55,692 bases of DNA from an uncultured Candidatus Saccharibacteria bacterium (GTDB lineage Bacteria; Patescibacteriota; Saccharimonadia; Saccharimonadales; Saccharimonadaceae), in assembly GCA_947165465.1 (NCBI GenBank), contig CAMVAM010000007.1:1-55692 (forward strand), in the 5' to 3' direction. The notes beneath the pieces are model-generated. The model was given only the letters and a program-made list of their open reading frames with translations. It ran no database searches and was not told where the DNA came from. This document shows, one piece after another, positions 23,120 to 36,962 of this stretch; the stretch's first letter is position 1, and each line of letters begins with the position of its first letter. Made by a program: the position numbers and the translations under genes.

Positions 23120-23220
23120 GGTCTCGTAGTATAGCGGGCAGACACATCGGGTTTTCATCCCGACAATGCGGGTTCGCTCGCCGAAGGCGAATAGCCGAAG
23201 CGAAGCGGAGGCTAACTCCC
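23120..23220 (+). pseudogene. Broken tRNA-Glu copy with a 38-nt insertion in the T-loop
   Basis: Bases 23120-23176 match the intact tRNA-Glu at 23234 (same acceptor 5' strand GGTCTCG, same anticodon arm with loop TTTTCAT), with a few changes and a 1-nt indel in the D-loop. After GGGTTCG the T-loop is interrupted by 38 nt (23177-23214) containing short inverted repeats such as CGCC GAA GGCG; the T-arm then resumes with ACTCCC (23215-23220). The expected acceptor 3' strand and CCA are replaced by unrelated sequence, so it cannot be a functional tRNA. Confidence 0.8.
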
Positions 23221-23233
23221 TTATTAACAATCT

Positions 23234-23308
23234 GGTCTCGTAGTATAGCGGTTAGTACATCGGGTTTTCATCCCGACAATGCGGGTTCGACTCCCGCCGA
23301 GATCACCA
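23234..23308 (+). tRNA. tRNA-Glu (TTC)
   Basis: Complete tRNA: acceptor GGTCTCG/CGAGATC, anticodon stem TCGGG/CCCGA around TTTTCAT giving anticodon TTC, T-arm GCGGG TTCGACT CCCGC, discriminator A and encoded CCA. Followed 4 nt later by an intrinsic terminator. Confidence 0.96.
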
Positions 23309-23312
23309 AGAA

Positions 23313-23346
23313 TAAAAAAGATAGCCTGAAAGGCTATATTTTTTAT
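23313..23346 (+). terminator. Intrinsic terminator after tRNA-Glu
   Basis: Stem ATAGCC / GGCTAT with loop TGAAA, flanked by an A-run and followed by ATTTTTTATT. Confidence 0.8.
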
Positions 23347-23353
23347 TCTTTAT

Positions 23354-23440
23354 GGTTGTCGGAGAGAGGCGAACCCGCAGGGTTCGCTCGCCGAAGGCGA
23401 ATAGCGAGCGCAAGCGAGCTAACTCCCGCCGGAATCACCA
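23354..23440 (+). repeat. Second 3'-end copy of tRNA-Glu with a related 35-nt T-loop insertion
   Basis: After a 3' flank similar to a tRNA 5' end (GGTTGTCGG), the sequence GGGTTCG (23380-23386) is followed by a 35-nt insert (23387-23421) that shares its first 19 nt with the insert at 23177, then ACTCCCGCCGGAATCACCA (23422-23440), which differs from the tRNA-Glu 3' end at two positions. A preceding GCGAACCC forms an 8-bp hairpin with GGGTTCGC over loop GCA. There is no anticodon arm. The insert itself folds: GCTCGC can pair with either of two GCGAGC copies. Confidence 0.75.
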
Positions 23441-23451
23441 GAAAAGAGTGG

Positions 23452-23589
23452 ATGAGAAAAACTATTCTGAAAGCCATCGCCCAGAAGTGCCCATATCTTT
23501 ATGCCGTCGTGACGATGGATGAATTCCCGCAAATTTTTACTGAGAATGACTTCTACAAGGAGGTGATGGTCCGGCCAGAGGAACAATAA
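23452..23589 (+). CDS. Possible small protein, 45 residues
   Basis: A short frame with acceptable composition: MRKTILKAIAQKCPYLYAVV, then a DEFPQIFTENDFYKEVMV segment and acidic end. It begins 12 nt after the CCA of the tRNA-Glu 3'-end copy, in a frame that is open further upstream through the tRNA sequences. No clear ribosome-binding site (GAGTGG only). An intrinsic terminator follows 44 nt later, which supports a transcribed unit. It may be a small gene or the remnant of a larger one. Confidence 0.35.
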   Translation: MRKTILKAIAQKCPYLYAVVTMDEFPQIFTENDFYKEVMVRPEEQ

Positions 23590-23632
23590 ATATTGGCCGA
23601 AAGGTTAATAAGTCGTTTCCAGAATGCTCCGA

Positions 23633-23659
23633 AGAGCCGCGACAGATGCGGCTCTTTTT
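23633..23659 (+). terminator. Intrinsic terminator
   Basis: Perfect 8-bp GC-rich stem AGAGCCGC / GCGGCTCT with a 7-nt loop, followed by TTTT. Confidence 0.8.
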
Positions 23660-23764
23660 GGTGCTCTGTTTGAACTGCAATGTCGGGCGGTGGTCCGGGC
23701 GGTGGGTCACCTCAACAAACAAGCAAGTCGAGAATAATGCTACAACATCTTTTGCAAAAGATGG

Positions 23765-23770
23765 TATAAT
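23765..23770 (+). promoter_or_regulatory. Extended -10 box of the coiled-coil surface protein gene
   Basis: TGGTATAAT, ending 25 nt before the ATG at 23796; unlike the leaderless genes it leaves room for a leader with GGAG. Confidence 0.6.
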
Positions 23771-23795
23771 CACTATAAATAACGGAGTTTTTGTA

Positions 23796-25289
23796 ATGCC
23801 CGAAGAGATGAAGATAAAACAAAAAAATACGGGATCAACGTCTGGAAAGAGAAAAAAGATTACGAAAAAACAGTCTAATGAAAAATTATCTACGACGAAT
23901 AAAAAAATATCTGCCGATACCAAGCAAAATGATCAGAGCCCAGAATTAAAAAGTCAAGAGAAGAAGAGTCCAGAGAATAAAAAAACCATTAATACATCCG
24001 AATCCAAAAATAGCAAAAAGAGTAAAGTTCTCAGGATCGTTATCGCAATCGGAGGTTTGATAATTATTGCTATCGCATGCGGTTTTCTTATTCCGTTTCT
24101 CGTCGATCGTCTGAATATTTCCTCAGATAAGATCTTAGAGAGATTTGCCGAAAAGCATTCGTATGTAGTTGATATTGAAAACTATACTACGGAAACTGAC
24201 CCTAATGGCATCATGGGCAATGAAAACGCCTACATTTCGAAAAGCAGTTGGGGAGACAATAGGCTTGAGAGCATCCCAGAAGGAGTCGCTGGCACTATGG
24301 AAGTATTTCGAAACACAAAAGATGCTGAAATTAGGGAGTGGAAACTTAATTACACAAAAGAAAACTGTAGAAACTATATTACTCCGGAAAAATACGGTGA
24401 AGAACTGTCAGATTATGTTTGTAATGGTCTTAGCTATGGGACGATCTATAGAAACAGCGTTGTCGTCATAAGATTGACGAGGGCGCTGTCTGATGAGCAA
24501 GTTGAAGAGTATAAACACGGTTTTGACGATCTGATTTCTGGTTTCATAATCAATGAGAGTAATACTCCTACCGATGAAAAAGTTGAAGAATTAAAGAAGG
24601 ATATTGAAAAAGATACTGCCGCCTCGTTTGAAGGACAAGTAAAATCATTTGAAGACGATCTGAATAATCTTGCCGACGACTTTGAAAAGCAAATTAAAGC
24701 AGCCACTGAGAGTCTTTCTGATGATGATTATGCCGAACTGAAAGATAGTCTGAATTATGTTAAAACTATCCCTTTTTTCTCTGACAAACTTGATAAATGG
24801 ACAACAAGCGTAAAGAATGTAAAGAATAAAATTACCGAAAAAAAGAATGCCGTAATTGCCAATATTAATAATCGCCTTTCCGCTATTGCTTCTTCGCTTA
24901 GTGAATCTGAATTATCCAAAGTTAAGGAAGATATTAAGAATATCACTGATCCATACTACGATTCATATAAAGAAAAATGGGAATCAAAGATTTCAAGCAT
25001 AGAGACGAGTATTGAACGTAAAAAGCTTGCAGCCAAGAACCGTACTTTTTCGGCGGGAAAATACACTGTTGGCTCGGATATTGAGTCTGGCACCTATGAC
25101 ATAATTGCCGTTCGTGGTAGTGGCAATCTATTTATCTATAATAGTTCTCAGCGTCTTGACGTAAATGAAGTGATGGACGTATATGGACGTTATGGCTTTA
25201 GCACAAAGTACAATAATGAATACCTCGGATATGGATATACAATCGAGATTAGGAGTGATTTAGTTCTCAAATTTGAAGCAAAGAAATAA
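23796..25289 (+). CDS. Membrane-anchored coiled-coil protein, probably horizontally acquired
   Basis: A 497-residue protein not assigned to a named family. Layout: Lys/Ser/Asn-rich cytoplasmic N-terminus (about 1-78), one transmembrane helix (about 79-102: VLRIVIAIGGLIIIAIACGF), an outer domain with a Cys pair, a long coiled-coil stretch (about 240-410) and a C-terminal beta domain (AGKYTVGSDIESGTYDIIAV, GSGNLFIY) of a type that I recall from Firmicutes surface proteins. The open frame extends 50 codons upstream through the promoter; the ATG at 23796 with GGAG 7 nt before is chosen. Codons are clearly more AT-rich (AAA, AAT, ATT, GAA) than in neighbours. It sits just behind the disordered tRNA-Glu locus, a typical landing site for transferred DNA. 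Probably a surface-exposed filament or adhesin-like protein (inference). Confidence 0.75.
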   Translation: MPEEMKIKQKNTGSTSGKRKKITKKQSNEKLSTTNKKISADTKQNDQSPELKSQEKKSPENKKTINTSESKNSKKSKVLRIVIAIGGLIIIAIACGFLIPFLVDRLNISSDKILERFAEKHSYVVDIENYTTETDPNGIMGNENAYISKSSWGDNRLESIPEGVAGTMEVFRNTKDAEIREWKLNYTKENCRNYITPEKYGEELSDYVCNGLSYGTIYRNSVVVIRLTRALSDEQVEEYKHGFDDLISGFIINESNTPTDEKVEELKKDIEKDTAASFEGQVKSFEDDLNNLADDFEKQIKAATESLSDDDYAELKDSLNYVKTIPFFSDKLDKWTTSVKNVKNKITEKKNAVIANINNRLSAIASSLSESELSKVKEDIKNITDPYYDSYKEKWESKISSIETSIERKKLAAKNRTFSAGKYTVGSDIESGTYDIIAVRGSGNLFIYNSSQRLDVNEVMDVYGRYGFSTKYNNEYLGYGYTIEIRSDLVLKFEAKK

Positions 25290-25436
25290 ATTGGATTTTG
25301 ATCTGCTCAGTCGCATAATCAAATAGATTGACAAAATAGTCGGCGATAGTTTTGCCGAGTAAAATATAGCCGAGTGTGCCATTTTCGCATTCTGCTATTT
25401 TTTGCCGAGTAAATGGATAATCGGCAAACTTAAGCT
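25266..25436 (-). pseudogene. Possible remnant of a minus-strand gene
   Basis: Between the coiled-coil gene and its terminator the minus strand holds an open frame of about 57 codons that reads like protein: FADYPFTRQKIAECENGTLG, then YILLGKTIADYFVNLFDYAT and EQIKIQFISLLQI, ending in TGA inside the 3' end of the plus-strand gene. There is no ATG, and a TGA stop lies immediately upstream, so it looks like a decayed or truncated gene rather than an intact one. The repeated motif TTTGCCGAGTAAA in this stretch (twice on the plus strand) comes from this reading frame. Confidence 0.35.
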
Positions 25437-25472
25437 TTTTCTTTCATATCACCATTGACGCCCTATCACAAG

Positions 25473-25509
25473 AAATAAAAAAAGACCCAAAGGGTCTTAT
25501 TTTTATTTC
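25473..25509. terminator. Bidirectional intrinsic terminator
   Basis: Stem AAGACCC / GGGTCTT with loop AAA, with A-run before and ATTTTTATTT after, between the convergent coiled-coil gene and iscU. Confidence 0.85.
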
Positions 25510-25901
25510 TTTTGTTCCCGATAATTCTTAATCGCATCCGCAAGTGCCTCATGCCCAAGCACGGAACAATGGAATTTGTGTTTCGGTAAATTCCCGAGAT
25601 AATTATCAATGTCTTTCGCCGAAATATTCAACGCCTCATCTAGAGTCTTTCCCTTAGCTAGCTCAGACAACGCCGAAGTCGAAGCAATCGCCGAAGCGCA
25701 GCCATAAGTCTTCCAGCGAAGATCTACAATCCGGTCATCTTTCACCTTGATATACATTTTCATTTGGTCACCACAAATCGGGTTCCCCACAATCCCGGTT
25801 GCATCAAAATCAAATTTCGATTCGTCGCCAAACAAGAAATTCCTAGGATTTAAGAAATGCTCTTTGACTTTTTCCGGATAGACCCAGTCTTCACCTTCCA
25901 T
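25503..25901 (-). CDS. iscU: Iron-sulfur cluster scaffold, IscU/NifU-N type
   Basis: Scaffold on which Fe-S clusters are assembled with sulfur from the adjacent cysteine desulfurase. The 132 residues have the three ligand cysteines: NPICGDQ (Cys about 43, with Asp 45), YGCASAIASTSAL (about 68) and HKFHCSVLG (about 112). The C-terminal NifU extension is absent. The start codon overlaps the desulfurase stop as TAATG, so translation is coupled. This pair is the only visible Fe-S system here; no isc regulator or chaperones adjoin. Confidence 0.92.
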   Translation of the reverse strand: MEGEDWVYPEKVKEHFLNPRNFLFGDESKFDFDATGIVGNPICGDQMKMYIKVKDDRIVDLRWKTYGCASAIASTSALSELAKGKTLDEALNISAKDIDNYLGNLPKHKFHCSVLGHEALADAIKNYREQKK

Positions 25902-26980
25902 TATTTTATTTTCCTTTCTATAGTGCTAATTTTTTGTAGACGCTCGATAATGCCCGGCAGCACCGCCATCACTTTCTCGACGTCCTCCTTTGTATTATCA
26001 AGTCCAAACGAAAAACGAATTGAAGAATGCGCCACTTCGGCATCACCGGTTTTTGCCATCAAGACGTGACTCGGCTTAATATCGCCAGAAGCGCAAGCAG
26101 AACCGGTAGAAACAATTATTCCTTCAGCATCTAAATAAAGCTGGATAGATTCGCCCTCAGCAGCTTCAAATGAAACATTCAAAATATTTGGAAGCGATTT
26201 CTCACCATCAAGTTCGGTATTTAAACTACTCCCCGGAACTTCTTTTAGAATCCGGCTAGCAAGTTCATCGCGAAGAGCGCGAACCTTGGTGTCGTAAATC
26301 TCCCAAGTCTTATGGTCTAAAACATATTTCAGCGCAGCGCCAAACCCGGCAATCCCCACTGTATTATAAGTACTGCCACGGCGATGTTTTTCCTGGCTAC
26401 CGCCAATAATGAGCGGTTCAAACGGTACACCTTTCCTAATATACAGTGCGCCCACGCCAATCGGCCCACCAATTTTGTGTGCACTAAAAGTTGCATAATC
26501 TAAATCTAGCGCCTTCACGTCTAGAGGAAGTTTACCCAGAGTCTGAGTGAGGTCGGAATGCACAAACCCACCTTCTTTGTGGGCTTTCTTTGCGATATCT
26601 TTTATAGGCAAAATCTCGCCAATCTCATTATTTGCGAGCATATAAGAATAAAGCACCGGCTTTTCGTCCCCACCTAATACCTTCGCAGTTTCAATCACGG
26701 AATGATGCTCAAGTGGTGAAGTAATAATCTTGTGCCCTTCAAAAGTTCGGATTACGGTATTATTAGATTCCGAAGCACCGGAAGTAAAGATAATCTCATC
26801 AGGCTCAGCATTAATCAGTTTAGCTAAAAGCTTCCTAGCCTCCTCGATTTTATTCATCGAAAGATGGCCAGGGGTATGAAGAGCAGACGCATTGGCGAAG
26901 TATTTTTCTTCGGCCTCGTGCATCGCCTTAATCACCTCCGGAAGAAGTGGGCTAGTGGCAGCATAATCTAGATAGACCAT
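25901..26980 (-). CDS. iscS: Cysteine desulfurase (NifS/IscS family)
   Basis: PLP enzyme taking sulfur from cysteine for Fe-S clusters and possibly tRNA thiolation. The 359 residues show the N-terminal YLDYAATSPLLP, GASESNN, the PLP-binding histidine EHHSV, the Lys of SAHKIGGPIG (about 169), the RRGSTYN loop and the active-site Cys in STGSACASGD (about 296). Group I (IscS/NifS) loop rather than SufS. The ATG lies 9 nt after TATAAT with AAGAGGA between, so the leader is minimal. First gene of the two-gene unit with iscU. Symbol could equally be nifS. Confidence 0.93.
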   Translation of the reverse strand: MVYLDYAATSPLLPEVIKAMHEAEEKYFANASALHTPGHLSMNKIEEARKLLAKLINAEPDEIIFTSGASESNNTVIRTFEGHKIITSPLEHHSVIETAKVLGGDEKPVLYSYMLANNEIGEILPIKDIAKKAHKEGGFVHSDLTQTLGKLPLDVKALDLDYATFSAHKIGGPIGVGALYIRKGVPFEPLIIGGSQEKHRRGSTYNTVGIAGFGAALKYVLDHKTWEIYDTKVRALRDELASRILKEVPGSSLNTELDGEKSLPNILNVSFEAAEGESIQLYLDAEGIIVSTGSACASGDIKPSHVLMAKTGDAEVAHSSIRFSFGLDNTKEDVEKVMAVLPGIIERLQKISTIERKIK

Positions 26981-27097
26981 TATCCTCTTATTATATCACA
27001 GTGTCACCCTATCCCCCATCTTTCCCAGACGCAAATTTATGTTATAATATATAATATATGCCCTAAAAAGCAAATAATGTACATTAGGAGGTTTATC

Positions 27098-27742
27098 ATG
27101 AACAAAACTATCTGTCCGAAAGTACGCGCATATATCGAGAAAGAAATCTTTCCCCGCTACGAGAAGCTTCCTGGCCACTCGCTCGACCACATCAAGAACG
27201 TCATCGAGCGCAGCCTCCGGATAGCTGAAGGTCTCGACGATATCGACATCACGATGGTCTACGTCATCGCGGCTTATCACGACCTCGGTCGTGAAATCGC
27301 CAATAAGACCCACCACGAGTGGTCCGCTTATCTACTCAACCGCGACGAGACGCTGAAGAAACTCTTTCTCCCAGAAGAAATCAAAATCATGGCTGAAGCC
27401 GTGGAAGATCATCGCGCTTCTTCGGAGCGCCCGGAACCACGCAACATCTACGGCAAGATTGTTTCTTCCGCTGATCGCTCATACTGTGTCGACGAAATCC
27501 TGGCCCGCGCCTACGATTACAACAAGACGCTTCACCCGGATTACACGGAAGACCAGCTCATAGAAGCCGTACGTCGGATTCTCCGCCGGAAATATTCCCC
27601 GGACGGCTACGCCGCCACCAAGATTTATTTCTTGAAGGACGAATACACCAAGTTTCTGGAAGAAGTCGAGCGCCTCACCCGCGACCCCGAAGAGTTCAAG
27701 AAAACCCAGCAAGAGTTCAACCGCAAACGCGGTATCTACTAA
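27098..27742 (+). CDS. HD-domain phosphohydrolase
   Basis: A 214-residue metal-dependent hydrolase of the HD superfamily. Seen: His in GHSLDHIKNVI (about residue 28), the HD pair in AAYHDLGREIA, His in VEDHRAS and Asp in VSSADRSYC. The substrate (nucleotide or cyclic nucleotide) cannot be told. The start at 27098 has AGGAGG at 7 nt; an in-frame ATG 7 codons upstream has none. Codon choice is richer in C and G at third positions than in its neighbours and it has a strong Shine-Dalgarno, hints of separate origin. A single-gene unit between two minus-strand operons. Confidence 0.82.
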   Translation: MNKTICPKVRAYIEKEIFPRYEKLPGHSLDHIKNVIERSLRIAEGLDDIDITMVYVIAAYHDLGREIANKTHHEWSAYLLNRDETLKKLFLPEEIKIMAEAVEDHRASSERPEPRNIYGKIVSSADRSYCVDEILARAYDYNKTLHPDYTEDQLIEAVRRILRRKYSPDGYAATKIYFLKDEYTKFLEEVERLTRDPEEFKKTQQEFNRKRGIY

Positions 27743-27744
27743 AC

Positions 27745-27772
27745 AAAAACTCCCGCCGAGGCGGGAGCTTTT
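27745..27772. terminator. Bidirectional intrinsic terminator
   Basis: Stem CTCCCGCC / GGCGGGAG with a 2-nt apex, A-run before and CTTTT after; between convergent HD gene and ligA. Confidence 0.85.
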
Positions 27773-30849
<3,077 letters not shown>

Positions 30850-30869
<20 letters not shown>

Positions 30870-31728
30870 GTTCCAACCTCTCAATTCTCTTCTCAATCGG
30901 CGGGTGCGTACTGAATAGATTACTTAGGAACCCTTTGCGAAGCGGATTATTAATATACATCGCTTCGGTTGCCGTATTCTGCTGCTTCATTGGTTGAGAA
31001 TGAGATTGGAGTTTCTTTAGCGCATTAATCATCCCTTCTGGATAACGTGTGATATTTACAGCCGATGCATCAGCAAGATATTCCCGTTCACGCGATACCG
31101 CCATCTGCGCAATCGCAGCAAGGATTGGCGACAGAATCGCAACGGCAAGAAGAAGTACATATCCCACCGGACTACCTTCATTGTCGCGCCTGCGGTTTCC
31201 ATAGAACATCATCCTCATGGCAATATCGGAAACTAGGCCCACTACGCAGGTTAGACCAAACACAATCATCGACACGCGAATATCATAATTCTTTACGTGT
31301 GACATTTCGTGCGCCATCACTGCGGTGAGTTCTTTATCATCCATAATATCGATGAGGCCAGTCGTCGCTGCTACCATCGCGTGTTGAGGATCCCGACCGG
31401 TCGCAAATGCATTTGGTGCCGGGTCATCAATCAAATAGACCTTCGGCATTGGCAAGCCCGTCGTGATACTCAAATTTTCTACTGCATTATAAAGTCTCGG
31501 ATTATCTTTCTTCTCGATTTCTTTTGCTCCGCTCATCACCATTGCAGCTTTTCCGGCGATGAAATATTGAATGAGAGCATAAATGATTGCCACAATCAGA
31601 ACACCCACCATAATCCAAACGTCACCATAAAAATATGCAAAAATTCCGGCAATCGCCGCAATCATCACCACGAAACTAAACATTATAATAATAGTTCGTC
31701 TTTTGTTCTGTGCAATCTGTTTATACAT
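30850..31728 (-). CDS. htpX: HtpX-type membrane zinc metalloprotease
   Basis: Membrane-protein quality-control protease, M48 family, 292 residues. Two N-terminal transmembrane helices (about 13-33 and 36-57), zinc site HEMSH (about 140-144) with the third ligand in EREYLADASA, two more helices, and the C-terminal STHPPIEKRIERL. The frame is open 14 codons further upstream, but that part is the lemA-htpX hairpin; MYKQIAQNKRR is the family N-terminus with AAAGAAA before it. Directly downstream of lemA, a frequent pairing. Confidence 0.93.
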
Positions 31729-31740
31729 TTTCTTTAAAGG

Positions 31741-31768
31741 GCTACACCCCGCGATTGCGGAGTGTAGC
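31741..31768 (-). terminator. Intergenic hairpin between lemA and htpX
   Basis: 12-bp stem (GCTACACTCCGC / GCGGGGTGTAGC on the minus strand, one G-T wobble) with loop AATC. No proper T-run follows, so it is more likely a partial attenuator or a processing/stability element setting the lemA to htpX ratio than a full terminator. Confidence 0.5.
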
Positions 31769-31777
31769 AAAGCTTAA

Positions 31778-32356
31778 TTAGAATTTTACATCTGGAGCTT
31801 TTTCAATTTTAGCTTGCTCAGCTTCAGTGACTTCAAAGTAATCACGCTTCTTGAAGTGACCAAACATGCTGTTTACAACATTTGCTGGGAAAGTCTTAAT
31901 CTTGGTGTTAAGTTCCTTAGCACCGGCATTGTAAAAACGACGAGCAGCTTGAATTTTGTCCTCGCAGTCTTGAAGTTGACCTTGGAGAGTTTGGAAATTC
32001 GTATTAGCTTTGAGTTCTGGGTAAGCTTCGGCGATTGCGAAGAGACGACCAAGAGCACCTTGCATAGCATTTTCTGCTTCAGCAGCTTGCTTCACGGTCT
32101 TTGCGCCCATTGCAGCAGTACGAGCTTCAGTCACCATCTTGAAGGTTTCGTTCTCGTGCTTGGCATAGCCTTTTACGGTCTCAACCACATTCGGGATGAG
32201 ATCTGCACGATACTTGAGCTGCACAGTGATGTCAGACCAAGCTTCGTTTACGCGCTCGTTGAGCCCAACTAAGCTGTTGTAAATCGCTACAATCGTACCA
32301 ACGACGATTAGTAGAATTGCGACTACAACAATTACTACTATTAATACTGGATTCAT
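31778..32356 (-). CDS. lemA: LemA family protein
   Basis: A 192-residue membrane-anchored helical protein: an N-terminal transmembrane helix (about 3-25) and the LemA pattern YNSLVGLNERVNEAWSDI, QLKYRADLIPNVVETVKGYA, HENETF, AYPELKANTNFQTLQ, ARRFYNAGAKELNTKI. Function is not settled; it commonly lies next to HtpX-like proteases, as here. A GTG two codons upstream abuts AAGGAG, whereas the ATG at 32356 is 7 nt from it, so the ATG is taken. Confidence 0.92.
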   Translation of the reverse strand: MNPVLIVVIVVVAILLIVVGTIVAIYNSLVGLNERVNEAWSDITVQLKYRADLIPNVVETVKGYAKHENETFKMVTEARTAAMGAKTVKQAAEAENAMQGALGRLFAIAEAYPELKANTNFQTLQGQLQDCEDKIQAARRFYNAGAKELNTKIKTFPANVVNSMFGHFKKRDYFEVTEAEQAKIEKAPDVKF

Positions 32357-32422
32357 TTCCACTCCTTATATTATATATATAATCATTATAGCACAAAAAG
32401 CCGACGTTTTTTAGCTAAAAAA

Positions 32423-33076
32423 CTAGTCGTTTGACACCTCTGGCGCAACCTCATTCGCCGGGTGCACCATCGTAAATTTCACCTTACCGGAATAACTTCC
32501 GGAAGCTTGCCCTTTACCAATATTTACCGCAAAACTCGAAAAGAATCCGGCCATAGAATCCGGAGTTGTACTAGCATTATAAGAAACCACTTTTGTATAT
32601 TGCCCAGGAACCACTTTGTAATTATTGTAGCCGTTTTCAATTCCCATATTTGACGGATTATAAGAATCCAAGTCTTTTTCAAGCTTCAAAGACCAGTTCG
32701 AAACATATTCATCCACGCCAGTCCCGGTCGCAATCGATTGCCCACCGGAATGCACCATACTTGTATTCCCATGGGTATCACCAGAATAGCCAATTGCATA
32801 GATCGAGAACCCAGCCGCGTCATTACAAACCGCCGAAACCTTTGTTTTTCCAATCCCATCATGATATGAGCCGGTCTCAAAAGCATAAAGATGCGTCGTC
32901 ACAGGCGTTGTCGACATTGTACAGGCCGCCGTCACATAGACAGACGCCTCTTTTGATTCAGCACTCGCAAAACTCGTATTAATTAGCGCCACAAACGCAA
33001 AAATCGTAATAAAAAGCAGCAGTAGTACAAATCCAAAACAAGAACCAATTGTTTTTGTTTTTGTATGACCTTTCAT
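32423..33076 (-). CDS. Secreted or membrane-anchored surface protein
   Basis: A 217-residue protein with an N-terminal hydrophobic segment (about 12-35, ending NTSFASAES, a possible signal-peptidase site) and one beta-rich domain. The pattern CNDAAGFSIYAIG, W.LKLEK and ASGSYSGKVKFTMVHP matches in outline the secreted proteins at 41068 and 39581 (AGFS/SGYT, W-aromatic, then SG.Y....F.V), so the three share a domain. Two cysteines (about 48 and 81) could pair. Of two possible ATGs the second (33076) lies 7 nt after TATAAT and is taken. Function unknown. Confidence 0.72.
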   Translation of the reverse strand: MKGHTKTKTIGSCFGFVLLLLFITIFAFVALINTSFASAESKEASVYVTAACTMSTTPVTTHLYAFETGSYHDGIGKTKVSAVCNDAAGFSIYAIGYSGDTHGNTSMVHSGGQSIATGTGVDEYVSNWSLKLEKDLDSYNPSNMGIENGYNNYKVVPGQYTKVVSYNASTTPDSMAGFFSSFAVNIGKGQASGSYSGKVKFTMVHPANEVAPEVSND

Positions 33077-33083
33077 ATTCATT

Positions 33084-33089
33084 ATTATA
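33084..33089 (-). promoter_or_regulatory. -10 box of surface protein gene, leaderless
   Basis: TATAAT on the minus strand; an ATG 1 nt after it is too close to be used, the next ATG is at 7 nt. Confidence 0.55.
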
Positions 33090-33126
33090 TCATGCTTTTG
33101 TTATTCTTAAAAAAGCAAGGGGTAAA

Positions 33127-33152
33127 AAGTCCCCACGTTTTTGTGGGGACTT
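33127..33152 (-). terminator. Intrinsic terminator of the orphan gene
   Basis: Stem AAGTCCCCAC / GTGGGGACTT with 6-nt loop; the minus strand continues into TTTTTACC. Confidence 0.87.
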
Positions 33153-33159
33153 CTTGGTT

Positions 33160-34458
33160 TTACAAAGAAACGCGAATATCGCACACCATAACATCACGAT
33201 CGTAAAATGAACCTCGGTCATAGTAGACAATTACAGTTTCGTCATCTCTTTTAACGAGATACTTACCGTATTCATCTTTAACTATCGTAATGTCTTTCGG
33301 AAGCCGAACGTTAAAGAAGTAATAATTTGCTTCACCAAGCACCTTTATGCCAAGCTTCTTATAAATCTCAAACAAGTATTCTTCTTTGTCATACTTCTTC
33401 GAATACTCAGCCGGTACCGGACCTCCGTAAAAAACCGGCAAGCACGTCTTTCGGTCGGTGCTGTCGTGTATTGCCTTTGAACTTCTGTCAATCGCTTCGT
33501 CACTACTCATACCGCCCATAATACCAAGGAGTGTCGCCATACCGGCAAACATGGTATCCCCGTTATCGGGTGCAGGAACACTGTTTTTCTTGCGAAGATA
33601 TTCTTTGTAATGACGCTTAAAACCATATTCGTATTCACAGGAATCCTTACTGTATAAAGAGAAAAAGTATTCGATTCTCTCTTCATTCAGCGGTATAAGG
33701 TGTGCTCTGTTACCGGCAACAACCATAACAGCTTGCCAAACCTTCAGGATTCCGCGATCTTGGACAGGCACTTCCGTTTCAAGCGCCGCCTCAGTAAAAC
33801 ATTGAACGCTTTCGATGTCATCATTCAAAACATCAACGAGAAAATCGCTCGTTAGTATTTCTTCAGGAATGTCCTCCATCACAGGAGTATCATTGCTAGT
33901 GCAAAGTGCATGATAATACTCCTCCGTGCGATACTCGTCCGGGGTAATTTCAAGAAAACGGTTAGCCCCATTTCTTTTGGATGCAAAGCATCTTGCACCT
34001 AGGATATACATTTCCTGAGTCAGGAGCTCCGGCTTTCTTCTTTTTACAGAATAAAACCAGTCGTCACATTCGTCGCGTCGCTCGCAATATCTCATATTGA
34101 CAGCCCTGAGCATTGCGCACATTACCAGCTCTTCATCAATGATTGCTTCATCCATCCATTCAAAAATGTTTTTCTCAAAAAACAATGAATAGTAATTGAT
34201 CGCAATCAAATCCTTGAAGAATTGCTTATTAAACTGCTTTGGGTGAGACACAACATACGCAATGTAGTCGTCATGACAGCCAGTTAAGTGCTGTCTGAGA
34301 TACTCAAACCTTTCACTTTTCGGGATATTCGCTATGGATATATCAGACTTATAATACTTATACTCCGTGTTTCCCTGCGTGTACCCCCTCTCCTGAAACT
34401 GTCTGGCTAATCTTTTGTAAGCCGGCATCTCTGTAATTACGCTTGCTATGAAAGCCAA
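33160..34458 (-). CDS. Orphan protein of unknown function next to tRNA-Gly
   Basis: About 432 residues, no recognised family. The first 10 residues are hydrophobic (LAFIASVIT), the middle is helical and acidic with repeated aromatic/leucine patterns (FFKDLIAINYYSLFFEKNIF, FEWMDEAIIDEELVMCAML), suggesting an alpha-solenoid. A low-complexity Gly/Met stretch GMATLLGIMGGMSSDEA (about 310) precedes a C-terminal beta-rich domain (YFFNVRLPKDITIVKDEYGK, VIVYYDRGSFYDRD). Nine or so cysteines, unusual here. The most likely start is TTG at 34458, 5 nt from AGGAAGGTGA; a GTG three codons earlier overlaps that site. It is the only gene between the tRNA-Gly repeat array and a strong terminator, and looks like accessory cargo. 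Confidence 0.65.
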   Translation of the reverse strand: MAFIASVITEMPAYKRLARQFQERGYTQGNTEYKYYKSDISIANIPKSERFEYLRQHLTGCHDDYIAYVVSHPKQFNKQFFKDLIAINYYSLFFEKNIFEWMDEAIIDEELVMCAMLRAVNMRYCERRDECDDWFYSVKRRKPELLTQEMYILGARCFASKRNGANRFLEITPDEYRTEEYYHALCTSNDTPVMEDIPEEILTSDFLVDVLNDDIESVQCFTEAALETEVPVQDRGILKVWQAVMVVAGNRAHLIPLNEERIEYFFSLYSKDSCEYEYGFKRHYKEYLRKKNSVPAPDNGDTMFAGMATLLGIMGGMSSDEAIDRSSKAIHDSTDRKTCLPVFYGGPVPAEYSKKYDKEEYLFEIYKKLGIKVLGEANYYFFNVRLPKDITIVKDEYGKYLVKRDDETVIVYYDRGSFYDRDVMVCDIRVSL

Positions 34459-34560
34459 TACAATCACCTTCCTTTGTAAATAAAGAATTAATCTACCAGA
34501 TATACAATCTCCTTATAATAATAACATAAAAAGTTTAAAAAGTCAATATTATAGATACAC

Positions 34561-34657
34561 AAAAATGGTGCGAATGAAGAGACTCTAACTCTCATTGGCG
34601 CAGCCCGAGAGTTAGCGGACAATAAAAAATGGTGCGAATGAAGAGACTCTAACTCTC
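34561..34657 (-). repeat. Two extra copies of the tRNA-Gly 3' end, CRISPR-like spacing
   Basis: The 33 bp from tRNA-Gly position 49 (T-stem) through CCA plus five T's (34688-34720 in and behind the tRNA) recur exactly at 34625-34657 and 34561-34593. The stretches between are 31 bp (34594-34624) and 30 bp (34658-34687) and differ, but both contain CCGAGAGTT on the plus strand. Read on the tRNA strand, each extra copy is preceded by the inverted complement of the T-arm (AACTCTC before GAGAGTT), forming an 8-9 bp hairpin. In the copy next to the tRNA an outer stem GTGCGA/TCGCAC also closes, making a minihelix ending in CCA. Confidence 0.85.
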
Positions 34658-34692
34658 GCACCGGAGGTCCGAGAGTTCCTGTCGCACAAAAA

Positions 34693-34769
34693 TGGTGCGA
34701 ATGAAGAGACTCTAACTCTCGACCTCTTCCTTGGCAAGGAAGCGCTCTAAACAACTGAGCTACATTCGC
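34693..34769 (-). tRNA. tRNA-Gly (GCC) with non-canonical elbow
   Basis: Acceptor GCGAATG/CATTCGC, D-arm GCTC/GAGC, anticodon stem CTTCC/GGAAG around TTGCCAA (GCC), T-stem GAGAG/CTCTT, discriminator A, encoded CCA. The T-loop is TTAGAGT: position 56, almost always C, is A. The D-loop AGTTGTTTA has T at position 19 instead of G. The tertiary pair G19:C56 is thus replaced by U19:A56. The first T-stem pair is G-U. A TATAAT box lies 12 nt before the 5' end. Confidence 0.93.
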
Positions 34770-34820
34770 ACGTTTAGATAATTATAACACATAGATTTGA
34801 ATTTTTGAAGCATTTTTTCT

Positions 34821-34849
34821 TTGACAAATCGAAACTAATCTGCTAAAAT
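34821..34849 (+). promoter_or_regulatory. Canonical promoter of the cation antiporter unit
   Basis: -35 TTGACA (34821-34826), 17-bp spacer, -10 TAAAAT (34844-34849); about 43 nt before the ATG at 34893. It is divergent from the tRNA-Gly promoter. The leader holds no clear Shine-Dalgarno. Confidence 0.72.
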
Positions 34850-34892
34850 CATAAGCATAATAAAGCAAAAATAAACAGGCAAACAATAATAA

Positions 34893-35879
34893 ATGGACAT
34901 GTTTCTTCAAATCGTGATGTTGGTTGCTGGCTTCGTACTTTTGATTAAAGGTGCGGACTGGCTCATCTCCGGCGCATCTTCCGTTGCGCAAAATTTCAAA
35001 GTATCAAAAATGTTAATCGGTCTTACCATTATCGCGTTCGGTACCGGTGCTCCAGAACTTGCAGTGTCCATTTCTTCCATGATTAGCGGCAATACCGATG
35101 TCCTCCTCGGTAACGTGGTTGGTAGCAACATCGTAAACGTCTTACTTCTTCTTGGTGTCGGTGCAGCCATTACGCCAATCATCGTAAAAAGAAATACTGT
35201 GAAAAAAGAACTGCCAATTTTGCTTTTAATCTCTACTATACTCGTCGTCTTATTCCTTGATACTTCTTTGAACGATGCCACTGTTAGCAAAATCTCTCGT
35301 GCTGACGCTCTTGTCTGTATCCTATTATTTGGTGTCTTTATTTACTACCTCGTCGCCATGGCCAAAAAGAAGAAAAACGCCAAAAACGAAGTCGAGAAAC
35401 CAAAGTGGAAACTCGGCATGTCGTTCCTTGTTACTATCCTTGGTCTCGCCGGCGTAGTTGGCGGTAGCCAGCTCGTCGTAAACGGTGCTACATCAATCGC
35501 CCAGGCTTTCGGCGTATCCGAAAAAATGATTTCCCTCACTATCGTCGCCTTTGGTACTTCGCTCCCAGAGCTCGTCACAACTATTACTGCATCTAGACGA
35601 AAAGAGCACGATCTCTTAATTGGTAACATCATCGGCAGTAACATCTTTAATATTTGTGGTGTCATGGCCATCCCAGTACTATTCGGTGGTTCCATCACTG
35701 CTACGAACTTCGACCCAATCGACCTTATCATGCTCATCTTCTCTGCTCTTCTCGTTTGGCTCTTTACTATTAAAGACCACAAGATTAACCGCACGGAAGG
35801 CTTCGCGATGCTCCTCATCTTTGCCTTGTACTATACCTATGTCATTTACGCTGGAATAACGGGCTTCTCTCTCCTATGA
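34893..35879 (+). CDS. Calcium/sodium antiporter, CaCA superfamily (YrbG-like)
   Basis: A 328-residue cation antiporter of about ten helices with internal twofold repeat. The two alpha-repeats are plain: GTGAPELAVSISS with GNVVGSNIVN in the first half and GTSLPELVTTITASRR with GNIIGSNIFN in the second; the two Glu are the ion ligands. A basic cytoplasmic loop (MAKKKKNAKNEVEKPKWK) joins the halves. It exports Ca2+ in exchange for Na+ (or K+/H+). Its TGA stop overlaps the next ATG as ATGA, so the two transporter genes are co-translated. Confidence 0.93.
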   Translation: MDMFLQIVMLVAGFVLLIKGADWLISGASSVAQNFKVSKMLIGLTIIAFGTGAPELAVSISSMISGNTDVLLGNVVGSNIVNVLLLLGVGAAITPIIVKRNTVKKELPILLLISTILVVLFLDTSLNDATVSKISRADALVCILLFGVFIYYLVAMAKKKKNAKNEVEKPKWKLGMSFLVTILGLAGVVGGSQLVVNGATSIAQAFGVSEKMISLTIVAFGTSLPELVTTITASRRKEHDLLIGNIIGSNIFNICGVMAIPVLFGGSITATNFDPIDLIMLIFSALLVWLFTIKDHKINRTEGFAMLLIFALYYTYVIYAGITGFSLL

Positions 35880-36802
35880 ATTGGTTAGTCCTGGTTGCAA
35901 TTGCGGTCGTCGCTGATGCAATCAGAGTGTTTGCTGATAACTACATTACAGACGTCTATTTCAAAGGCAAAGAATCTGTCTCACAAAAGCATTTTTATGG
36001 TTGGTTTTTCGTCATACTATCAATCGTCATGCTTTTCATCTTCCCGGTCGATATCCAAGCAGCTCCACTTTATTTAATCGGCTTTCTAATTCTGTCCGGC
36101 TGTCTTAATTCACTTGCTGGGATTCCATATTATCGCGCCATGGAAATGGACGACACTACAAATATTTCCATTTTCGTTCAATTAGCGCCAATCGTTTATC
36201 TAGTCTTTGGCTGGATCGCTTTACATGAAAGCTTCTCTCCGCACCAACTGCTTGGCTTCGTAATTATTCTTTGTGGTCCGTTTCTCGTTATCGCTACCAC
36301 CAGGAAACGTAGCCGCAAAGTCAAAATCAAAGCTGCCATCCAAGCAGCCCTCTATGTCGTAATTTCCGTCGTCGCAAATCTCATTTTTGTAAAAACCAGC
36401 GACATTACCGAAATGTCATTCGTACAGGACATGATCTTTATCTTCCTTGGTAAAGGTATCGGCAACATTATCATCTGCGGTTTCAAGCCAACCTGGATCC
36501 AACGCTTTAACACTGTTGTCAAGAAGACGAAAGGCAAAATGCTTCGCCCGCTTATTATTAATGCTATCATCGGTATTACAAAGGATTTCACCTACCGTGC
36601 CGCCCTTACCCTCGCTCCGGCTGTCGCTATCGCATCAGTTGCTACCGATTCCGCCTCGCCAATCGTTGTTTTCTTCCTCGGTATTTTATTTACTCTCATC
36701 TGGCCAGCTTTCGGTCGCGAAAAACTCGAGAAAAAGACTGTACTTGTTCACATGATTGCTACTATTCTAGTTGTAGCCGGCATTATCATACTGCAAAAAT
36801 AA
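35876..36802 (+). CDS. EamA/DMT-superfamily transporter
   Basis: A 308-residue protein with ten hydrophobic helices arranged as two EamA-type halves (about 1-140 and 150-308); the GFVIILCGPFLVIA and HMIATILVVAGIIIL segments are the typical last helix of each half. DMT-family exporters carry small metabolites; the substrate here is unknown. ATGA overlap with the antiporter gene. It ends 25 nt before the tRNA-Cys. Confidence 0.82.
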   Translation: MNWLVLVAIAVVADAIRVFADNYITDVYFKGKESVSQKHFYGWFFVILSIVMLFIFPVDIQAAPLYLIGFLILSGCLNSLAGIPYYRAMEMDDTTNISIFVQLAPIVYLVFGWIALHESFSPHQLLGFVIILCGPFLVIATTRKRSRKVKIKAAIQAALYVVISVVANLIFVKTSDITEMSFVQDMIFIFLGKGIGNIIICGFKPTWIQRFNTVVKKTKGKMLRPLIINAIIGITKDFTYRAALTLAPAVAIASVATDSASPIVVFFLGILFTLIWPAFGREKLEKKTVLVHMIATILVVAGIIILQK

Positions 36803-36827
36803 ATTCCATGATATAATAAATCAAGGT

Positions 36828-36901
36828 GGTGCTTTGGCGGAGTGGTTACGCAGCGGTCTGCAAAACCGCGTACACCGGTTCAATTCCGGTAGGCACCTCC
36901 A
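36828..36901 (+). tRNA. tRNA-Cys (GCA)
   Basis: Acceptor GGTGCTT/AGGCACC (one G-U), D-arm GCG/CGC, anticodon stem GCGGT/ACCGC around CTGCAAA (GCA), T-arm CCGG TTCAATT CCGG, discriminator T, encoded CCA. A TATAAT box is at 36812-36817. Confidence 0.95.
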
Positions 36902-36914
36902 TTTTTCTTACGAA

Positions 36915-36962
36915 AATTCCGGGCCTTCCGCGTCCCAAGGGGCGGTAGGCACCTCCATTTTT
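36915..36962 (+). repeat. Extra copy of the tRNA-Cys 3' end with a structured insertion
   Basis: The 20 bp CGGTAGGCACCTCCATTTTT at the tRNA-Cys end (36887-36906) recurs exactly at 36943-36962, 56 bp downstream. Just before it, AATTCCGG (36915-36922), the T-arm 3' side, is also repeated, but about 21 nt of GC-rich, self-complementary sequence separates the two parts. It is thus a tRNA 3' end interrupted in the T-arm, as at tRNA-Glu. Confidence 0.8.

Follow-up and report, generated by a model that had tools for sequence, protein, structure and literature searches.

What do extra copies of transfer RNA (tRNA) 3' ends, set beside intact tRNA genes and broken or preceded by short folded sequences, represent? 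The question is raised by a stretch of 55,692 nucleotides (referred to here as the window) from a small parasitic bacterium, an uncultured member of Candidatus Saccharibacteria (assembly GCA_947165465.1; contig CAMVAM010000007.1, contig C7 of genome G000), in which such copies stand at the genes for tRNA-Glu, tRNA-Gly and tRNA-Cys. A preliminary description of the window had reported these extra ends; they are real, and a second copy at tRNA-Gly and copies on both sides of tRNA-Glu can be added. The remaining tRNA identified in the window with ARAGORN, tRNA-Leu, had been described as having no copy, and no 3'-end copy was found there. We regard the evidence as evenly poised for and against the view that the units (a displaced copy, of roughly the final 18 bases, with its insert) are very small, mostly gene-less integrative elements, or their scars, which entered in the T-loop and regenerated the tRNA. 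An element of this kind would enter the tRNA gene at about 58^59 and supply its own copy of positions 59 to CCA, so that the tRNA would remain intact while the original 3' end was shifted downstream, where it would be abutted by the folded right end of the element. The entry step would be a site-specific recombination in which the hairpin forms part of the recombination site, with a recombinase, either the housekeeping XerA or one belonging to a visiting element, acting in trans. This interpretation fits best the specificity of the copies for their own tRNA, their boundaries and terminators, the ends of one larger island, the relatives with a unit-free tRNA-Cys and the occurrence of units in tandem.

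Frequency and distribution of the copies

The genome comprises 785 kb in 13 contigs and is 98% complete. To test for chance, 41 tRNAs were each compared, over their final 32 nt, with the 350 nt downstream, other tRNAs being masked (three of the 41 had short flanks of 0, 72 or 85 nt). Exact matches of 12 nt or more to the tRNA's own flank occurred in 13 of 41 cases, as against 8 of 1640 pairings of a tRNA with a foreign flank; with words of at least 10 nt the figures were 16/41 and 24/1640. The 5' flanks gave a match of at least 10 nt at a single tRNA of the 41, that of the Glu locus, and inverted matches of that length were seen at two of the 41.

The same test was applied to relatives, covering 25 to 34 listed tRNAs per genome. 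Among the tRNAs listed, copies of at least 12 nt were found at 1/25 (G380), 6/33 (G381) and 5/34 (G379) in members of the same genus and at 11/26 in a member of the same order (G382), with zero to two cross matches at 12 nt in each of the four genomes. The tRNA-Cys of G379, G380 and G381 is without a unit. Samples from the class and from the rest of the phylum, which consist of the best-scoring tRNA loci and are hence biased, contained copies at 3/62 and 1/52 tRNAs respectively; some Saccharibacteria thus have many such copies, and the remaining samples few. A narrow pattern describing the unit matched 2 of 379 genomes of the phylum, both of this genus. The search of the tRNAs of this genome and of those listed for its relatives, of the kind suggested when the three loci were first described, shows that the copies occur throughout the genome and in other assemblies, and that the flanks in relatives, far from being random, have the same architecture.

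These results bear on the possibility that the copies are artefacts of assembly at repeats, an explanation that is scarcely credible. Several further contigs of the assembly start or stop at tRNAs, so that the assembly does break at such genes, and the same tRNA-Ala(CGC) unit is found at the ends of two contigs (C3:5-47 and C6:57918-57960). However, the same architecture is seen in other assemblies with public records, and the units of the window are internal to their contig.

Boundaries of the repeat

The limits of the repeat were compared in a set of 65 units, many of which were recruited via the alpha pattern described below and in which the Pro(TGG) entry of this genome is the neighbouring Pro(CGG) unit. 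The commonest start was position 59 in the T-loop (25/65), with starts at positions 55-62 in 55 of the 65, and the commonest end was CCA+0/+1 (32/65). Terminator-like signals were counted for the 46 copies with an exact match to the last 12 nt of the tRNA, and were present behind 35 of these 46 displaced copies and 39 of 46 genuine tRNA ends, against 12 of 128 windows used as a control. Because this rate resembles that of true ends and is unlike that of the controls, the displaced ends look like former real tRNA ends. Units are found in tandem at four loci (L027, L116, L120 and L128). The proposal that a shared architecture reflects one process is supported, since the same boundaries recur at many tRNAs in several families of the class.

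A process of a different kind, in which the replicating polymerase switches template at the tRNA hairpin, would involve a jump back, an inverted piece and a second copying of the tRNA end. It would account for the inverted T-arm pieces that adjoin direct copies at some units and for the inclusion of the terminator in the duplication at two loci (L114 and L128). The shared start near position 59 and the end at CCA would however need another cause, the same ends bound an island of 2.47 kb, and one family of inserts, alpha, is found at different tRNAs in different Saccharibacteria. Template switching alone, which was among the four mechanisms first put forward, does not explain such a recurrence across different families, and we consider it clearly unlikely.

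A retron-type island at tRNA-Glu(CTC)

For tRNAs without a near copy the search was extended to between 2 and 12 kb behind the gene. At tRNA-Glu(CTC) on contig C1 an exact 19-nt displaced copy was found 2470 nt downstream (C1:53681-53699), bounding an island of 2.47 kb (L307, C1:53681-56246), and no distant copy was found at 17 further tRNAs examined over 2 to 12 kb. The island encodes a retron-type reverse transcriptase of 321 aa, an enzyme of anti-phage type (best PADLOC match RT_VI, 8.6e-65; Pfam RVT_1, 1.4e-22), a 61-aa open reading frame (ORF) and a 129-aa protein with a match to CdiA_C.

Both ends of this island are recognisable in the unit downstream of tRNA-Glu(TTC) in the window. The terminator-like hairpin and T run that follow the tRNA (23309..23350, + strand, as are all features of this locus) align with the left end of the island, to which the inverted T-arm piece with GGGTTCG (23369..23386) is also common. 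The 35-nt insert of the unit, H2 (23387..23421), aligns with the right end and is followed by a displaced tRNA 3' end of 19 nt (23422..23440). The alignment to the left end (terminator and inverted T-arm) scored 75 and that to the right end (insert and displaced copy) scored 79, the two overlapping by three bases, as against at most 32 for other tRNA flanks of this genome, which form a small control. The displaced end had been taken for a copy of the neighbouring gene's own 3' end; it instead matches tRNA-Glu(CTC) of contig C1 at 19/19 positions and tRNA-Glu(TTC) at 17/19. On the strength of the alignment to both ends and of the CTC-type copy behind Glu-TTC, the window unit looks like the tRNA-Glu(CTC) island minus its cargo, and the copy points to exchange between the Glu loci. 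Since the two Glu tRNAs stand in tandem among the tRNAs listed for G380, the CTC-type end may also be native, the remnant of a tandem gene since lost. Of the 12 genomes searched for proteins, 5 contained reverse transcriptases, which are therefore not generally tied to the units.

Folded inserts and the alpha family

The folded inserts abut the displaced copy and fall into several families, which differ behind equivalent tRNAs across relatives. In one of these, alpha, a hairpin of about 50 nt separates position 57 of the copy from position 59; it is present at several tRNAs of G382. A covariance model of alpha matched 8 of 147 genomes of the class, G000 not being among them, and the insert matched no Rfam family. 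Scanning a collection of species genomes with the alpha pattern gave 44 sites in 41 stretches (two of which, L173 and L185, are identical in sequence), with 42 sites in records of Saccharibacteria, Saccharimonadia or Patescibacteria and two chance-like sites elsewhere; no stretch with the pattern was found in viral contigs. Hits in Chloroflexi (L177) and Clostridia (L200) were excluded from the folding comparison and all later analyses of alpha. For 28 of the 42 sites a tRNA on the same strand lies no more than 250 nt upstream, and the site has 9 nt or more in common with the end of that tRNA; two are near a tRNA with only 5 nt shared and four are at 660 to 1400 nt. The other eight had no tRNA in the piece examined, and three of them are approximately 5 to 7 kb from tRNA-Met, tRNA-Arg(TCT) and tRNA-Gln, the match to the last being imperfect.

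Covariation among 52 hits of the alpha model was 0.285, compared with 0.104 in shuffled alignments (0/500 as high) and at most 0.066 with slid partners, and changes on both sides were seen at 12 of 20 pairs. One G.U pair is present in 52/52 sequences; the search pattern fixes this pair, yet the 10 of the 52 sequences that are off-pattern also have it. In a comparison of RNA with single-stranded DNA by wobble bias, the cells comprised 61 G.T and 38 A.C, of which one invariant pair accounts for 52 of the G.T and one poorly paired column for 25 of the A.C. Predicted RNA folding was better on the tRNA strand at 39 of the 42 sites. The fit of the upstream arm to the copied end was weak in 17 alpha units (4.3 versus 3.9 of 5; 3/2000 permutations), and in the larger set 31 of 52 were above the cross mean (0/300 permutations as high).

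Such data could be taken to mean that the units serve as structured RNAs linked to tRNA genes, or as read-through trailers, and that selection keeps them because they influence the neighbouring tRNA or imitate it; each would then have an arm of antisense character, a T-loop insert that folds, and a 3' tail resembling that of a tRNA and ending in CCA. The strong covariation of alpha with its constant G.U pair, the preference of the fold for the tRNA strand on which the units lie, the weak fit of the arms and the retention of CCA and a terminator-like signal in many copies are all in keeping with an RNA. Against this, the distribution is patchy both within this genome and across the class and phylum samples, equivalent tRNAs have different insert families and tRNA-Cys is free of a unit in the relatives named above. 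An RNA function is therefore a minority possibility in our estimation, although one that has to be taken seriously: with the conserved folding of alpha, two candidates are left, a recombination signal or an RNA function.

The inserts of G000 are shorter than alpha. In one recurring form GACC..GGTG is closed by an arm that can pair with the T-arm sequence of the copy; this form is found at tRNA-Gly and tRNA-Asn in G000, at tRNA-Glu(CTC) in G379 and also in G157. A covariance model for a further family, beta (R2), found nothing in 19 loci.

Recombinases, cargo and the case against integration

Several observations weigh against the units being integrative elements. No dedicated recombinase was found for them: the genome has one tyrosine recombinase (PF00589), which is XerA-like, passing the XerA_Arch cut-off by 0.5 bit and reaching 125 bits against a cut-off of 265 for the integron integrase model TIGR02249, and 8 of the 12 genomes, this one included, have a single PF00589 match. 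Searches of G000 for resolvase-type recombinases (PF00239) and for Y1_Tnp (PF01797) gave no match, and the retron-type island contains no recombinase. The 28 alpha sites within 250 nt of a matching tRNA leave no room for genes. In 11 of the 65 units the repeat ends short of the final A of CCA and in 22 it runs further, in two of these through the terminator (L114 and L128 again). The displaced Glu copy is of CTC type where simple integration predicts TTC type. In many displaced copies the insert splits positions 57 and 59, so there is no uninterrupted attachment core, and an interrupted core together with the strong covariation of alpha is not expected of a passive scar. Finally, at L140, L182, L242 and L244 the cargo is found between the tRNA and a complete unit. 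Among the families searched only the XerA-like recombinase was found, and the mobility of the units is for that reason inferred.

Of the four explanations originally offered, duplication of an attachment site nevertheless fits best, on account of the start at about 59, the end at about CCA, the terminators and the one case with cargo; it falls short in the interrupted core and in that XerA was the sole integrase found in this genome. A very small mobile hairpin, another of the four, amounts to nearly the same explanation provided that the units are elements without cargo.

Because it stands between the tRNA and an entire unit, the cargo at L140, L182, L242 and L244 looks like a separate insertion; in front of each of these units are the final 6 to 9 nt of the tRNA and a terminator. 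Such islands appear to insert closer to the acceptor end, displacing a unit that was already there. The idea that cargo-bearing alpha units are whole elements was accordingly dropped for these four loci and retained for the G000 island. At L140 and L244 there is a unit on each side of the cargo.

Large serine recombinases were considered as the mobiliser and dropped, as they could not be linked to the units. PF00239 matches occur in 8 of the 12 genomes, with a tRNA in 5 of 10 such loci examined, and are lacking in G382 as they are in G000. At 11 tRNAs associated with a serine recombinase no clear end copy was found downstream (best 11 to 15 of 21 letters in the 1.7 to 11.6 kb examined), and no hit of the alpha model in 15 serine-recombinase loci was better than E 0.4. 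PF01797 matches were found in 2 of the 12 genomes. Among the matches listed, serine recombinase reading frames reach into, or pass beyond, the 3' end of a tRNA gene encoded on the opposite strand at L227-L231, L236-L238, L241 and L242.

Genes near units include a type I restriction-modification system (L140), RelB/YafQ with an exonuclease (L143), an AIPR/AbiU protein with a cytosine methylase (L243) and, on an island behind tRNA-Gln, a serine recombinase with an Eco29kI-type restriction-modification pair (L242). The defence-type genes of L140, L242 and L243 sit behind tRNAs of relatives, near units.

Comparison with known systems

A literature search at the level of abstracts returned no description of this arrangement of tRNA-end copies, a result which does not prove its absence from the literature. 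Integron attC sites, with boxes of consensus RYYYAAC and GTTRRRY, are folded, partly palindromic sites beside gene cassettes, the cassette end being completed by the recipient site. The units resemble them in having a folded site beside the cassette and an end completed by the recipient, and differ in lying in a tRNA T-arm, in being mostly gene-less and in the absence of an integron integrase above the cut-off. One might imagine that Saccharibacteria have a cassette system in which the housekeeping XerA recombines a single DNA strand, folded into a T-arm mimic with an extrahelical hairpin, into the tRNA gene at about 58^59. Almost any tRNA would then serve as a port for defence cassettes, the retron-type island of this genome being an example, and cargo-less units would be left behind; we look on this as a long shot.

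IS200/IS605-type and REP-like elements are small imperfect palindromes with bulges that are present in many intergenic copies. The units share the small bulged palindromes and the multiple copies between genes; unlike those elements they are bound to tRNA 3' ends, copy the tRNA end and are found in a genome without a Y1 match. Phage Ms6 reportedly carries its own integrase. The units here are without an integrase or phage genes, the likeness lying in a crossover within the T-loop of a tRNA gene, which for Ms6 is reported in tRNA-Ala (PMC1762012).

The closest parallel is with genomic islands that integrate into tRNA genes, of which Islander is a catalogue (PMC4383910). As in these islands, the tRNA is intact and a direct copy of its 3' end, displaced from the gene, marks the far limit, the repeat spans from the crossover inside the tRNA to its 3' end (with a mode here of 59 to CCA+0/+1), and in one case here there is accessory cargo, the retron-type reverse transcriptase. 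Unlike them, the units are mostly 40-280 nt and gene-less, with a folded insert where the crossover falls in the displaced copy; the searches revealed no integrase, and within a single genome many tRNAs are affected. The units work like a tRNA-integrating island but are not classed as one, because no integrase was found and the core of the displaced copy is interrupted.

Saccharibacteria genomes are very small. If the units are integration sites, many tRNA T-arms would be ports of entry for accessory or defence genes, in a genome in which no classical integrase was found, and the units would provide a simple sequence signature for locating such islands. If they are RNAs, they would form a structured family tied to tRNA genes and unmatched by Rfam 15. 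With the covariance models of Rfam 15, only tRNA and ribosomal RNA reached gathering score in the window, and the same was true of 12 loci from relatives searched to E 1.

The tRNA loci of the window

Interrupted tRNA copies flank tRNA-Glu(TTC) on both sides. The intact gene (23234..23308), like those for tRNA-Gly and tRNA-Cys below, was identified by both tRNA and Rfam searches. The upstream copy, recognised by sequence comparison, comprises tRNA positions 1-57 and ends in GGGTTCG (23120..23176); a sub-threshold tRNA match of 27.2 bits covers 23120-23189. It is interrupted in the T-loop by a 38-nt insert, H1 (23177..23214), directly after which the copy ends with ACTCCC (23215-23220) and is separated from the intact gene by the spacer TTATTAACAATCT (23221-23233). 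H1 and H2 share a 20-nt core, which recurs a third time, differing at two positions, downstream of tRNA-Leu(CAA) on a different contig. A similar layout was seen at L146:12450-12909 (genome G488), where three tandem units of 125 nt stand upstream of tRNA-Gly(TCC), each consisting of tRNA positions 2-57, a T-loop insert and positions 58-63, followed by a spacer with ATTAACAATCT; the layout is that of the upstream Glu copy and the spacer is similar.

The intact tRNA-Gly(GCC) lies on the - strand (34693..34769) with TTTTT directly after it, and has two downstream copies of its 3' end, each preceded by its own hairpin with a 3' arm that forms the start of the copy. The hairpin of unit 1 (34651..34677, -) contains the GACC..GGTG loop and leads into a displaced end of 29 exact nt plus TTTTT (34625..34658, -), and that of unit 2 (34587..34613, -) into a second displaced end, also with TTTTT (34561..34593, -). 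The intact tRNA-Cys(GCA) (36828..36901, +) is likewise followed directly by TTTTT; its unit consists of a T-arm piece (ATTCCGG) with a hairpin insert (36916..36943, +) and a displaced 3' end with TTTTT (36944..36962, +). The description of all the inserts as self-complementary holds strongly for Gly unit 1, where folding exceeded that of shuffled sequences with z -3.5, and moderately for Gly unit 2 and Cys (both z -2.2); the folding of the two Glu pieces was within the range of shuffles (z -1.2 and -1.4).

Elsewhere in the genome, on contig C5 (L015), a row of near-identical hairpins with AGACCA/TGGTCT arms lies between tRNA-Pro(TGG) and tRNA-Pro(CGG).

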